Part shown: piece after piece, positions 13,757 through 43,975 of the stretch | Layout of the letters: each line of letters begins with the position of its first letter | Numbering within the stretch: the stretch's first letter is position 1 | Source: an uncultured Eubacteriales bacterium | GTDB taxonomy: Bacteria > Bacillota > Clostridia > Christensenellales > CAG-314 | Direction: 5' to 3' | NCBI GenBank assembly: GCA_949289125.1 | Contig: CASEME010000018.1 | Location: 1-64,000, forward strand | Length of the DNA stretch: 64,000 nt | Translations under genes and position numbers: made by a program | Notes under the pieces: generated by a model | The model's input: only the letters and a program-made list of their open reading frames with translations | The model's database searches: none | What the model was told of the DNA's origin: nothing

Positions 13757-13842
13757 GTAATCGGCGTAATAAGTTGGCTGTCGGCTAAACGTCTTATGTA
13801 AAAATAGACATTGCACCGTATAGCACTTACAACTGATCCGAC

Positions 13843-13964
13843 AATTCTTTTCCCATCCAGACTATACTGTCGGTGTAGGAATTGCACCTACTCGGCGGCA
13901 AAGGTAATTTTGCCGTTCACGGACTATACCGTCGGTGTGGAATTGCACCACGCCCCAAAGAATG
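13843..13964 (-). ncRNA. FMN riboswitch (RFN element)
   Basis: On the minus strand all the conserved RFN blocks appear in order: GGGGCGTGGTG, AATTCCACACCGACGG, AGTCCGTGA, GTAGGTGCAATTCCTACACC, GACAGTATAGTCTGGATGGG. P1 forms from ATTCTTT and AAAGAAT at the ends. FMN binding is expected to favour the terminator at 13719-13756 and so shut off ribU. Confidence 0.97.
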
Positions 13965-14003
13965 TCAAAGTATTGTAATTGTTGCAGATCGCTCTGCAAT
14001 GCT

Positions 14004-39568: not shown

Positions 39569-39697
39569 ATGAAAAAGTATCGCAAAGAGAATGCCGAATA
39601 TTACTGCAATTACGAAACCTGTCGCAACTATCCGCCTTTGGTGGAAAACGACATTACAGAAGAAAACTTTGAGGAGGAATACGAAGAAGATGTCTAA
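39569..39697 (+). CDS. Small acidic protein, unknown function
   Basis: 42 aa, with a basic N-terminus (MKKYRKENAEYY), two cysteines and a very acidic C-terminus (EENFEEEYEEDV). AAAGGAG precedes ATG 39569. Its last eight bases overlap the start of the 39690 gene, whose SD lies in its coding sequence, so the two are translationally coupled. I recognise no family. Confidence 0.55.
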   Translation: MKKYRKENAEYYCNYETCRNYPPLVENDITEENFEEEYEEDV

Positions 39698-40169
39698 TAT
39701 GACCAAAAGCGCAAAAACACGCGCTATTGCCGCATACGACAAACAAGCTACACGCAAAGCATTGTCTGCTATGTACAAAAACGTGACTATGGCAAAGCAC
39801 AGTATCAAAGTGCTCAACGAGTACGTGGATGACCAGCAAATGCGAAAGTGCCTTGCCAAACAAACAAAGCAATACGACCAATTTATACAACAGTTGGAAG
39901 AGGCAGCAAGTAATCTCAATCATACTTTGCGCAGAGAACGCAAGTCATACCTTGTCATGGCTAAGATGGGCATACGTATGCAAATGATGTTTGACGACAG
40001 CAAACAACACGCAGCCAAGATAATGCTGAAAGGTACGCTTATGGGTATTATTGATATGAATGCTATGGTCAACGAAACACCACGTCTTGAAACTAATACT
40101 GCCACCATTGCTCAACAGTTGACAGAGTTTGAAGAACAACGTATGGACGAATTGAAAAAATATCTGTAA
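39690..40169 (+). CDS. Helical-bundle (ferritin-like) protein of clostridial type
   Basis: 159 aa, almost entirely helical. The end (MGIRMQMMFDDSKQHAAKIM, LKGTLMGIIDMNAMVNE, LTEFEEQRMDELKKYL) resembles a widespread uncharacterised clostridial family with a ferritin-like four-helix bundle. Ferritin iron ligands (ExxH) are not evident. ATG 39690 with GAGGAGG 12 nt upstream; a second ATG at 39699 is possible. Paired with the 42-aa gene. Confidence 0.6.
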   Translation: MSNMTKSAKTRAIAAYDKQATRKALSAMYKNVTMAKHSIKVLNEYVDDQQMRKCLAKQTKQYDQFIQQLEEAASNLNHTLRRERKSYLVMAKMGIRMQMMFDDSKQHAAKIMLKGTLMGIIDMNAMVNETPRLETNTATIAQQLTEFEEQRMDELKKYL

Positions 40170-40298: not shown

Positions 40299-40374
40299 TC
40301 GGGCAAAGTGCTCAACTGTCGGTCAGGTAATAAAGGAAGGAGAAGGCGACCTGATAGTTAAACTCTTTGCCCGA
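40299..40374 (-). ncRNA. Candidate 3'UTR RNA: long hairpin with C/U-rich loop
   Basis: Outer 10-bp stem TCGGGCAAAG/CTTTGCCCGA (40299-40308, 40365-40374), inner AACT/AGTT and TCAGGT/ACCTGA stems, and a 20-nt loop that reads CTTCTCCTTCC on the minus strand, complementary to SD sequences. It begins 17 nt after the lipoprotein stop and is followed by a terminator hairpin. Confidence 0.4.
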
Positions 40375-40391: not shown

Positions 40392-41765
40392 TCATTGTAT
40401 AGTCAACGTAAGACGATATTGCTGTTCTTGCAACAGTCTTTCTTGTGCCAACTCACGCGCCGTGTTGATTGCCTTGTACATCACTGCTTCAGCATTTTCC
40501 AACAACGATTGTATTGTCTTTTTGTACTGCTCTATCTCTTGTTTTTTGTTGTTGGGCAACTCATCAAAGTATTGTTGCAACTCGTTTAGTTTACTTTCCG
40601 TCTTGGCTATCAGCGTGTCGAGGTCTTTGATGTCCTCTATGCCACCTTCAATAGTAAGTCCTGCTTCGGACAGTTTGTCAATGATACTGTTGATAGTTTG
40701 CTTCACTTCTTCAGTAAGTGCCGAATTAGCCTCTTTGATGCCTTGTATCAGCTCGAATGCACCACCCCACACTTTGTCAAACTGTGCTTTCTGCTCGTCA
40801 GTAAGCCCTCTGTACAGTGTGTTGAAGTATGCTTCAACGCCTTCAAGCGTTATCTCGCCGTCCTCATTTTTGACCGCTGTCAGAAATTGATTGAGCTGTT
40901 CTTCGGTCATTTCCAATGATTGTGCAATCTGTTGTGCTTGCTCGTCAGTCAATACAATGAGTTGTTGCAAACCGCTTTGTACCTTTTGTATATACTCGAG
41001 GCTGTAGTATGCCGTTTTGAGTGCTACGTACTGAGCACCACGCACAGCGTCTACACCAACGTAAGCAAGTTGCATCAGTCCGTCCACTGCCGCATTGTAC
41101 ACTTCTTCGGCTTTTAATACAGCCATTTCAAATTGGTCGTCCAACTTGTCTTTATAATACTCGTGCGTCTCTTTGAGCTCTTCGATCAATGCGTCAAAGT
41201 CAAAGTTTGTAAAGCCCTCGAAGTCAAAACTACCGTCTATACTTACCGAACATATCAAACGGTACTCACTGTCTGTAAGTTGTTGCACCGCTTGGTTGTC
41301 GGGATATTGCTCTTTGAGTGCGGCAAGTTGACTACTGTAAGACAATGCTCCGTCTGTAGTTATTGCAACATCCAAACTATGCTCGTCAAAACTTCCGCTC
41401 AAACCTGCGCTGACTTCTGCCTGTATTTGTGCCGCTAATTGGTCATTTTCACCCAATACAGTAAGCCCTATTGTGCCTTGTGCATTGGCAATGTAATTGT
41501 ACTTATACGCAAGTTCGGCAATTTGCTTACTTGCTTGCTCAACTGATTTACCCACAATGTCAGTTGTTCCATACAACATAACCTGCTCATCATGGTTTTT
41601 TGCTCTCAGCGTTACCACCTTGTCATTTTCAACTACCATCTCAACAGACGGGTTGATATCTATTGCCACATACGTGCTGTCGGGATTGGGGTTGCACGCC
41701 GCAAGCACAATGCCAAACGATGATATCAGCATAATCAGAGCTGTCAACAATGCCGCCTTTTTCAT
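40392..41765 (-). CDS. RsgI-like lipoprotein (lacks cytosolic domain)
   Basis: 457 aa. Lipobox LAAC with Cys24 as the lipidated residue, then STYVAIDINPSVEMVVEND, the N-terminal motif of the RsgI extracytoplasmic domain, with the N38-P39 bond at which RsgI proteins are reported to self-cleave. The rest is largely helical with Glu/Gln-rich coils. It lacks the cytosolic sigma-binding domain and membrane helix of its paralogue at 41905. SD AAAGGAGAG. Its leader (41851-41889) carries the same split block as the sigma gene. It may be a decoy, co-sensor or output of the module. Confidence 0.8.
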   Translation of the reverse strand: MKKAALLTALIMLISSFGIVLAACNPNPDSTYVAIDINPSVEMVVENDKVVTLRAKNHDEQVMLYGTTDIVGKSVEQASKQIAELAYKYNYIANAQGTIGLTVLGENDQLAAQIQAEVSAGLSGSFDEHSLDVAITTDGALSYSSQLAALKEQYPDNQAVQQLTDSEYRLICSVSIDGSFDFEGFTNFDFDALIEELKETHEYYKDKLDDQFEMAVLKAEEVYNAAVDGLMQLAYVGVDAVRGAQYVALKTAYYSLEYIQKVQSGLQQLIVLTDEQAQQIAQSLEMTEEQLNQFLTAVKNEDGEITLEGVEAYFNTLYRGLTDEQKAQFDKVWGGAFELIQGIKEANSALTEEVKQTINSIIDKLSEAGLTIEGGIEDIKDLDTLIAKTESKLNELQQYFDELPNNKKQEIEQYKKTIQSLLENAEAVMYKAINTARELAQERLLQEQQYRLTLTIQ

Positions 41766-41850
41766 AATCTCACTCTCCTTTAATAAGTGCACGCAACGTA
41801 TACTGCCATTGCGTTGTTGATATTCAACAAAACTTATCTCGTTTTGTCTT

Positions 41851-41889
41851 TCATACATTAAACAACGCTACTGCCATTTTTATTGGCAA
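41851..41889 (-). promoter_or_regulatory. Copy 2 of the putative ECF-sigma promoter
   Basis: TTGCCAATAAAAA, 11 nt, TTGTTTA-A-TGTATGA. Both blocks and the spacing equal copy 1 upstream of the sigma gene. It is 86 nt before the lipoprotein ATG. Confidence 0.7.
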
Positions 41890-41904
41890 ATTGGAAAATT
41901 ATTT

Positions 41905-43314
41905 TTATACAGTATGATTATTTGTTAGTCTGTCGTATTCCTGTTGCATACCGTCAACAATACTATTGATATATTGTTCAATATCGTTAACTCCCTGCGC
42001 GCTTTGCAACACGGTATTACATTCTTCGGCAAGCAGTCCAAGACTATCCACTATTGCCGATGTAAGACTATCTATTACGCTTACAGCCATTTGGGAAATG
42101 TCCGCTATTGCATCTTTGAGTTGGTCAACACAATCACGTATCAACTGAACGTCTATGGTGCTGTACATAATGTCGTATGCCTGCCAAGTGACTGTACCCA
42201 CATTGGGCACTTTGCTGTCCACAAGATACATAAAACCGTATATTTGCGCACGGTCAACCAAACTTTCAAAACGATTGAGCAAAGGTTGGGCACTTTGTGG
42301 CATAAGCCCTCTGTCATTCAATGCCCTTAGCCACCAACCGTTAGTCTCAGTGTACAGCAACGAGTGTTGTTCGTATAGCTGTTGAAGCGTAGCGTCCGCC
42401 TGTATATCTTCTGTCAGTTGTTGCATTTGTACAATGATATTTTGCCTTTCTTCTACATCAATGAGAAATTTTTCCAACAACTGCATACGGTACAGACTGT
42501 TAATTTTTTGTTCCACCTCTTCGTCGAGCAACTGTATTGCAGTTTGTCTCAACTGCTCGAGGTAGTCCACTTTGCCACACAAAATTTTTATATATTGTTC
42601 GGTAGTATTTGCAGATTGTACTTCACTGCCTGTCTGGTGCGCTTTGTCTGCAAGCTGCTCCTCGCTAATCACACTGTCGTTAACAGTTACTGCAACCTGT
42701 CTCTGCTCGGTGACGTTACTGATGGTTTGGCTAATGTCTGCAAGCAAGTCTTGTGTTGCTTGTTGTCCTCGACTGCTAATTGCGGACACTTCTACCAAAC
42801 CGCCCTGATACAAATATCCGGCATCTATCATCTGTTGCGTCACTATATCTGTTGCCTCGCTTATACTTTTGCCTTTGCAACTCTCATAGATGTTGCCACC
42901 CTGTGCAAGCGTCTGCGCCTGGTAGTTGTTGGCAATTACTTTTTGCACTTTGCCACGACTATCAGCAACTATATCAAAGGACGGATTGACAGATAAGTTG
43001 ATATAGGTATCGTATTGATTGTAGCTATTGCTTGTTACAATTACTGCAGTGACGCATATACATACCACTGCCATTACACAAAACGCCGCTGTCCAACGAC
43101 GCAATTTTGTAAAGCCAAATATACCTGTTTTGCGTTGGCGTGTATTGCGTTTACGGTCGTTGTCGGTCGTGTCCGATGCGTTGTGTTTGTCGGAGTTTAC
43201 GCGCGAAGCCTTAGTCTCAGTTACAATTTGTTGTTTGCGTAACTTGCGGGACATATCGGGCGTCATCTCCTCTATTTGGGCGTTGAGCCTGTTCAATATG
43301 TCTTTTTTCTTCAC
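41905..43314 (-). CDS. Membrane RsgI-like anti-sigma factor
   Basis: 469 aa. A basic cytosolic N-terminus (residues 1-73, KKKDILNRLNAQIEEMTPDM) is the likely sigma-binding part; one membrane segment spans 74-95; the extracellular start TYINLSVNPSFDIVADSRGK has the RsgI motif with N110-P111. A long helical sensor region with no known carbohydrate-binding domain follows. GTG 43314 overlaps the sigma stop by 4 nt, SD GAGGAGG. Presumably it holds the ECF sigma until an envelope signal releases it. RsgI proteins normally pair with SigI, not with an ECF sigma. Confidence 0.82.
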   Translation of the reverse strand: MKKKDILNRLNAQIEEMTPDMSRKLRKQQIVTETKASRVNSDKHNASDTTDNDRKRNTRQRKTGIFGFTKLRRWTAAFCVMAVVCICVTAVIVTSNSYNQYDTYINLSVNPSFDIVADSRGKVQKVIANNYQAQTLAQGGNIYESCKGKSISEATDIVTQQMIDAGYLYQGGLVEVSAISSRGQQATQDLLADISQTISNVTEQRQVAVTVNDSVISEEQLADKAHQTGSEVQSANTTEQYIKILCGKVDYLEQLRQTAIQLLDEEVEQKINSLYRMQLLEKFLIDVEERQNIIVQMQQLTEDIQADATLQQLYEQHSLLYTETNGWWLRALNDRGLMPQSAQPLLNRFESLVDRAQIYGFMYLVDSKVPNVGTVTWQAYDIMYSTIDVQLIRDCVDQLKDAIADISQMAVSVIDSLTSAIVDSLGLLAEECNTVLQSAQGVNDIEQYINSIVDGMQQEYDRLTNNHTV

Positions 43315-43847
43315 CGTTGTTCCTCCTCAATAGCTTTTTGGACTGTTTTCAATGCGTTTTTGTACTTCCAAGTAACTGTGCCCAAGGGCAAATCCAAAAT
43401 TTTTGCAATCTCGCGATGTTTGTATCCGCCAACCGCATGCATAAGAAGTATGGTTTTGTCCTCTTTGGCAAGCACTCTGTTGACCACCTGCAATACGTCT
43501 GTGTATTCGGCACTGCTACAAGCGTCTGGGTGCGCTTTGGCACTAAGCGTGTCATTGTCACACACCACCTCTCGCTTGCTTTTTTTGACGCTGTTGTAAG
43601 CAATATTTTTGGCAATTTGCAACAGCCAAGCCGAAAAGTTGGTGTTTGGCGCGTAGCTACAAATATTTAGTTTTACCTTTATGTACGTTTCCTGCAACAC
43701 GTCTTCCGCCGTAGCCCTGTCGCCCACAATGGAATAGGCGAAGGCAAACACCCCTTTTTTGGTAAGTGCATAGAGCTCGGCAAACGCCTGTTCGTCTCCT
43801 TGTTGCACCGCACGCACATATTGTTCGATAACTGCCCTGTTGCTCAC
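43311..43847 (-). CDS. ECF-type RNA polymerase sigma factor
   Basis: 178 aa. Sigma region 2 (AFAELYALTKKGVFAFAYSI, AEDVLQETYIKVKL, FSAWLLQIAKNIAYN) and region 4 (HREIAKILDLPLGTVTWKYKNALKTVQ); no regions 1 or 3, so ECF type. The start is GTG 43847 with GGAAGGGG. It overlaps the anti-sigma gene and carries a 39-bp element upstream that recurs before the downstream lipoprotein gene, suggesting autoregulation. Confidence 0.92.
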   Translation of the reverse strand: MSNRAVIEQYVRAVQQGDEQAFAELYALTKKGVFAFAYSIVGDRATAEDVLQETYIKVKLNICSYAPNTNFSAWLLQIAKNIAYNSVKKSKREVVCDNDTLSAKAHPDACSSAEYTDVLQVVNRVLAKEDKTILLMHAVGGYKHREIAKILDLPLGTVTWKYKNALKTVQKAIEEEQR

Positions 43848-43887
43848 AGTTGTCCCCTTCCTTTAACAAATGTTGTGCTTTTTGATG

Positions 43888-43926
43888 TCATACAATAAAC
43901 AATTAAGCATGGCTTTTTATTGGCAA
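43888..43926 (-). promoter_or_regulatory. Copy 1 of the putative ECF-sigma promoter
   Basis: TTGCCAATAAAAA (43926-43914), 11-nt spacer, TTGTTTA-T-TGTATGA (43902-43888), 41 nt before the sigma GTG and just after the cysE terminator. Matches copy 2 at 27 of 28 non-spacer positions. Confidence 0.7.
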
Positions 43927-43934
43927 CAACATTA

Positions 43935-43975
43935 AAAATTATAAAATAAAACGCATCGAGCTTCTGCCCGATGCG
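43935..43975 (-). terminator. Terminator of the peptidase E-cysE operon
   Basis: 10-bp stem CGCATCGGGC/GCTCGATGCG with AGAA loop, followed by TTTTATTTT on the minus strand. It insulates the sigma promoter. The 43976-44111 stretch holds no gene that I can see. Confidence 0.8.

Follow-up and report, generated by a model that had tools for sequence, protein, structure and literature searches.

A SEAL-domain lipoprotein as a possible envelope effector of an apparently self-contained ECF sigma factor cassette in uncultured Christensenellales

We describe here a cluster of three genes found in a window of 64,000 nucleotides (bases 1-64000 of contig C18) from an uncultured Eubacteriales bacterium of the Christensenellales, whose genome of 1.33 Mb is assembled in 29 contigs. 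All three genes lie on the minus strand and encode, in this order, an extracytoplasmic function (ECF) sigma factor, a transmembrane anti-sigma factor and a lipoprotein (Table 1), and they coincide with the three open reading frames (ORFs) reported by a first-pass annotation made from the sequence alone. The stop codon of the sigma gene and the start codon of the anti-sigma gene share a 4-nt GTGA overlap, while the lipoprotein gene starts at an ATG which follows AAAGGAG; if the ORF were extended in frame to 41858, its start would fall within the promoter element preceding this gene. Both membrane proteins carry a SEAL domain of the RsgI type, and the cassette is a SEAL/RsgI-type signalling system with an added lipoprotein component, which is new in this form. 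The explanation that we put forward, and to which we give about an even chance of being right, is that the ECF cassette is self-contained and that the lipoprotein is its dedicated envelope effector, held on a SEAL anchor made to break away in the manner of a mechanical fuse.

Table 1. Features of the sigma/anti-sigma/lipoprotein cassette in the window, listed in the direction of transcription.
Feature	Position	Strand	Details
Terminator-like hairpin with T-rich tail	43952..43975	-	10 pairs, 7 GC, TTTTATTTTA; pattern match only
Promoter element P1, before sigma gene	43888..43926	-	pattern search and footprint in relatives
P1 -35, CAATAAA	43916..43922	-	
P1 -10, TGTTTAT	43895..43901	-	
ECF sigma factor	43311..43847	-	178 aa, regions 2 and 4, GTG start
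Anti-sigma factor	41905..43314	-	469 aa
Anti-sigma Asn110-Pro111 codons	42982..42987	-	predicted autocleavage site, between model strands 1 and 2
Promoter element P2, before lipoprotein gene	41851..41889	-	pattern search and footprint
P2 -35, CAATAAA	41879..41885	-	
P2 -10, TGTTTAA	41858..41864	-	
SEAL lipoprotein	40392..41765	-	457 aa
Lipobox Cys24 codon	41694..41696	-	same in 39/39 aligned sequences
Lipoprotein Asn38-Pro39 codons	41649..41654	-	predicted autocleavage site, kept in 39/39 aligned sequences
Lipoprotein C-terminal helical region	40395..41123	-	residues 215-457
Long stable hairpin right after lipoprotein stop	40299..40374	-	-33.2 kcal/mol, z -4.3

The Pfam family PF23750 (RsgI_M) was recognized in both membrane proteins, with E-values of 1.6e-13 and 3.5e-14 and scores of 54.0 and 51.8 bits (cut-off 25.3), and it was also present in all 39 aligned members of each of the two protein families. 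Profiles of both families matched the Protein Data Bank (PDB) structures of RsgI1, RsgI2, RsgI6 and RsgI9 of Clostridium thermocellum and of Bacillus subtilis RsgI; a PDB search with a single anti-sigma SEAL sequence gave no match, and it was the profile that found the RsgI structures. Structure searches with the predicted models again ranked RsgI structures first, the fold of the lipoprotein giving Z-scores of 11.0 with 8t9n, 9.4 with RsgI1 and 9.0 with RsgI9. The cleaved C. thermocellum RsgI chains in the PDB begin exactly at the Pro that corresponds to a conserved Asn-Pro (NP) pair, which our models place between strands 1 and 2 of both proteins (E103-108/N110-P111/E112-117 in the anti-sigma factor and E30-36/N38-P39/E40-46 in the lipoprotein). 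NP is present in 53 of the 56 anti-sigma factors from complete cassettes and in all 56 cassette lipoproteins, and autocleavage at this position is predicted for both proteins by analogy with RsgI. The first-pass annotation had spoken of an RsgI core in the lipoprotein; the RsgI type stands, and the core can now be narrowed down to the SEAL autocleavage domain, to which homology between the two ectodomains is confined (hhalign of the two C-terminal parts gave a probability of 8.8, with homology not detected). A tree of SEAL domains separates lipoprotein and anti-sigma copies with one change, at a weak support of 43/72, and a single origin of the lipoprotein SEAL fits this tree, if weakly supported.

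The sigma factor matched PF04542 and PF08281 in the Pfam profile search, which, together with PF23750 in its partner, bears out the pairing of an ECF-type sigma factor (regions 2 and 4) with an RsgI-like anti-sigma factor recognized in the first-pass annotation. A sigma factor with regions 2 and 4 only and an adjoining transmembrane anti-sigma factor make up an ECF pair, and a SEAL anti-sigma gene adjoins the sigma gene in 73 of the 81 sigma loci that we collected (80 relatives in named contigs and the window itself). The match to Sigma70_r4_2 (3.4e-8) reveals a sigma-4 domain, unlike in SigI, and the tree places a long branch with 100/100 support between the window sigma factor and two SigI-like proteins of the same order, picked by their adjoining RsgI_N-bearing anti-sigma factors. 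The sigma factor is therefore not a SigI, in agreement with the earlier reading. Its best curated ECF families are SigY (107 bits) and SigW (98 bits), all far below the curated cut-offs. The cassette sigma factors were not recovered as one clade in the sigma tree, which thus gives no support to a single origin of the cassette. The same genome encodes another ECF-like sigma factor (contig C23, 33424-33936; L077, 2404-2949), which shares 39% identity with that of the cassette and has no SEAL gene in the 8 kb around it.

The anti-sigma factor consists of a short cytosolic helix (residues 3-17), a transmembrane segment (71-93), the SEAL/RsgI_M domain (103-215) and a helical ectodomain (218-468). 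Its cytosolic part is thus small, being a short conserved helix of consensus ELDxxxPxMSxxV, and we propose that this helix holds the sigma factor. A profile search for the RsgI N-terminal domain, which the first-pass annotation had suggested as a check, came out negative: RsgI_N (PF12791) is absent from the anti-sigma factor and from the whole genome, and it has matches in five of 61 genomes, two of them above the cut-off.

In the lipoprotein, a signal peptide with lipobox Cys24 is followed by the SEAL domain (about residues 30-206) and a helical C-terminal part. The first helix spans residues 2-24 and the one hydrophobic segment of the relatives is the signal peptide, as expected of a lipoprotein; the lipobox Cys and the Asn of NP are 14 residues apart. 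In the predicted model, the C-terminus is formed by a helix some 50 residues long. A conserved, EF-hand-like KNxDGxIT loop is located near residues 299-306, and since no EF-hand Pfam family was among the 25 listed matches for it, we keep it as a hint only. Matches of the apolipoprotein or coiled-coil type, together with helical-bundle matches of middling Z, were considered as a possible known domain in the C-terminal part and were not taken as evidence. Among the papers that a literature search on SEAL domains, RsgI and lipoproteins brought up, none deals with SEAL lipoproteins as far as its title shows, and a search for Christensenellales and anti-sigma factors found nothing.

The two transcription units of the cassette are preceded by a split element, TTGCCAATAAAAA-N11-TTGTTTANTGTATGA, which the first-pass annotation had described as identical before the sigma and lipoprotein genes and had taken for the promoter of this sigma factor. 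We found exactly two copies of it in the window, where shuffled sequences gave an expectation of 0, and exactly two in the whole 1.33-Mb genome (the reversed-pattern control gave 0), neither of them at a random site. What is conserved in relatives, before both the sigma and the lipoprotein genes, is a core of the form CAAYAAA-N14-YGTTTAW, with the N14 spacing kept almost everywhere, while the TGTATGA that follows the -10 is not conserved. Phylogenetic footprinting thus upholds the promoter, but as this core and not as the whole 39 bp. With the conserved -35 and -10 and the fixed spacing of an autoregulated promoter in the comparative footprint, the assignment of the element to this sigma factor may be regarded as well supported. 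Of the 56 three-gene loci, 37 have a slightly looser pattern, used for counting, before both units and 53 have it before one unit or more; in 0.79 Mb of loci, 105 of its matches fell on the strand of the cassette and 5 on the opposite one. Comparison of both promoters within a locus showed the same initial -10 base in 36 of 37 loci and the same base at the fourth -35 position in 27 of 37, these being raw counts in which kinship is ignored. An A-run directly after the -35 AAY is found in all cassettes (e.g., at 43914-43922 of the window).

The strict pattern was then counted in 20 genomes. It gave 38 matches at cassettes (two in 18 genomes and one in 2) and 21 elsewhere, compared to 27 for the reversed control. 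No common downstream gene was found among the non-cassette sites examined, and most of these lie inside genes or have no convincing gene downstream. As the other strict matches neither exceed the control nor share a gene, we ruled them out as extra regulon members, and the regulon detectable at the sensitivity of this pattern appears to consist of the sigma/anti-sigma operon and the lipoprotein gene. This supports the first-pass annotation in seeing an output in the lipoprotein, although the options that it offered (a decoy, a co-sensor or feedback) did not include a plain effector role.

The three-gene order extends well beyond this genome, as a second SEAL gene lies within 3.5 kb in 56 of the 73 loci with an adjoining SEAL anti-sigma gene (56 of all 81), at a median gap of 82 nt. 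A full-length lipoprotein was found in 38 of 297 sampled genomes of the order, in seven families (f1, f3, f6, f15, f24, f29 and f32), and the sigma/anti-sigma/lipoprotein circuit is old. Among 391 genomes sampled from the class, the only full-length lipoprotein match was in the window's own genome, the others matching the SEAL part only. The records of relatives are mostly of "uncultured Clostridia" and Christensenellaceae, and NCBI puts Candidatus Ornithoclostridium in Christensenellales; some record titles name Corallococcus or Anaeroplasmataceae, which may be mislabelled assemblies. In other families of the class, ECF sigma genes immediately followed by SEAL anti-sigma genes are common. The pairing to which the first-pass annotation drew attention is therefore real, but it is widespread in Clostridia and is not the novelty; the unusual component is the third gene, the SEAL lipoprotein. 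Such pairs were frequent in other orders of the class (loci L242-L270), and at L242, L243, L251 and L253 a second, very divergent ECF type stands beside a SEAL anti-sigma gene.

How could such a circuit work? In RsgI anti-sigma factors, SEAL domains act as switches released by force or by a ligand. The genome studied here encodes a site-2 protease of the RseP/RasP type. In RsgI, autoproteolysis of the SEAL domain is known, and the route set out is one of autocleavage, RseP and ClpXP: the protein cuts itself in the periplasm, a stimulus parts the first strand, RseP cuts, and ClpP-dependent degradation frees the sigma factor (PMC12203970). By analogy, the SEAL domain of our anti-sigma factor would cut itself at Asn-Pro, with the two pieces staying non-covalently joined. 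After destabilisation or forced removal of the ectodomain, the RseP/RasP-type protease and cytosolic proteases would destroy the rest. The freed sigma factor would then transcribe from CAAYAAA-N14-YGTTTAW promoters, that is, its own operon, in positive autoregulation, and the SEAL lipoprotein gene. Force sensing by the anti-sigma factor and its regulated intramembrane proteolysis (RIP) are both modelled here on RsgI, and the domain common to the two proteins is probably force-sensitive.

The same proteolytic route is closed to the lipoprotein, because it has no transmembrane or cytosolic part which its SEAL domain could feed into intramembrane proteolysis. NP is nevertheless kept in every lipoprotein, and the simplest reason for this would be that the ectodomain is released in a controlled way or relieved of strain. 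After self-cutting, some 15 residues would remain on the lipid anchor and would hold the 419-residue ectodomain through one beta-strand; the ectodomain would stay in place in the resting state and come off under strain of the kind to which the anti-sigma factor responds. That the lipoprotein is the circuit's only detectable output argues for an effector role, a role which, like the shedding, we infer without precedent. In a more specific version, SEAL was recruited from signalling to serve as a break-away lipid anchor, the ectodomain is shed by force, and one type of fuse acts both as sensor and in effector release; we offer this version tentatively and with some doubt. A conserved SEAL lipoprotein with no RIP route would, in any case, offer a clean test of what SEAL autocleavage does outside RIP, and the apparent restriction of the regulon to an operon and a single further gene, maintained in several families of mostly uncultured gut-type Clostridia, narrows the function of the system to the lipoprotein.

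Several observations weigh against the effector proposal. Three anti-sigma factors which cluster with that of the window in the tree (L143, 5827-7107; L145, 6025-7386; L212, 5998-7368) have a longer loop in place of the lost NP, and autocleavage is thus not a general requirement for the anti-sigma factor, even among close relatives. For the helical C-terminal part of the lipoprotein, domain and structure searches point to no ligand or activity. Weaker targets would escape the strict pattern, and the agreement between bases of P1 and P2 is not corrected for kinship. It is also plausible to ask whether the lipoprotein acts on signalling itself, as a shortened copy of the anti-sigma ectodomain which competes for the same ligand, strain or partner and thereby lowers signalling. 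Both proteins have the same SEAL domain just outside the membrane, the lipoprotein gene is an adjoining one under a promoter of this same sigma factor, and it is apparently the sole target outside autoregulation, all of which would suit such a feedback or decoy. However, SEAL is the only part that the ectodomains have in common, so a shared ligand-binding part is unsupported and a simple ligand-decoy role is weakened; moreover, the L143, L145 and L212 lipoproteins keep NP although the adjoining anti-sigma factors lost it. We regard this alternative as unlikely. The anti-sigma factor of a further locus, L144, resembles those of L143, L145 and L212, and the contig stops short of any lipoprotein gene.

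On the other hand, the lipoprotein might be a co-sensor which associates with the anti-sigma factor, by way of the helical ectodomains or a common SEAL beta-sheet, and which is either required for detection or tunes it. Both proteins are mostly helical outside SEAL, and their long co-occurrence in one cassette, with the lipoprotein spanning seven families of the order, would be expected of partners; but the lipoprotein has a separate promoter, the gap from the anti-sigma gene reaches about 3 kb, and sigma/anti-sigma pairs without it occur in the order and are common elsewhere, which makes co-sensing quite unlikely in our opinion. Finally, the shared element might be an operator or an RNA element for another regulator. 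There are other sigma factors in the genome, and recognition of the element by this one is deduced from sequence, yet two blocks at a fixed 14-nt spacing, with an ECF-like AAC/AAT -35 and a CGT/TGT-type -10, placed before the start of both units, with the strong strand bias and the concordance of the two sites within a locus, render this explanation highly improbable.

As an effector circuit or otherwise, the cassette may be compared with several known systems. SigW/SigY/SigM-type ECF factors of Bacillus, the closest curated ones by score, have autoregulatory promoters of the AAC/CGT type; here, the run after the -35 AAY is A-rich and not T-rich. It recalls the A-tract of SigI promoters, unlike the T-tract which is a feature of ECF promoters (PMC6056542). 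With SigI/RsgI of B. subtilis and of C. thermocellum (SigI1-8/RsgI1-9), the cassette has in common a sigma gene followed by an anti-sigma gene, a membrane anti-sigma factor with a juxtamembrane SEAL domain and NP, and, as far as can be inferred, the route from autocleavage to RseP and Clp (PMC12203970). It differs in having an ECF sigma factor with a sigma-4 domain instead of SigI with SigI-C, in the missing RsgI_N, in a helical ectodomain where RsgI proteins have sensors of the carbohydrate-binding module or glycoside hydrolase type, and in a predicted two-unit regulon with an extra SEAL lipoprotein. Other clostridial ECF/SEAL pairs, of many families, have the same order of sigma and SEAL anti-sigma genes, but no such SEAL lipoprotein was seen in their loci (about 1.5 kb on each side), nor was a CAAYA-type/YGTTTA site found within 300 bp upstream of their SEAL genes. 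Eukaryotic SEA domains, in mucins and other mechanosensitive receptors, were reportedly described by Brogan et al. in 2023 as self-cleaving, with the halves joined until pulled apart; ours would be a lipid-anchored bacterial version, and the comparison is made only through RsgI SEAL structures.

The cassette is flanked by hairpins. The one at its upstream end stands between it and a hexapeptide-transferase (cysE-like) gene. The hairpin that follows the lipoprotein gene, of sequence CGGGCAAAG...CTTTGCCCG, lacks a clear T tract and an Rfam match, and is the probable transcript end of this gene. Beyond it, a 192-aa ORF on the plus strand (39591-40169), with no Pfam match at 0.001, is convergent with the cassette. 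The sole Rfam match of the window is a flavin mononucleotide (FMN) riboswitch (RF00050, 111 bits) on the minus strand at 13841-13966.

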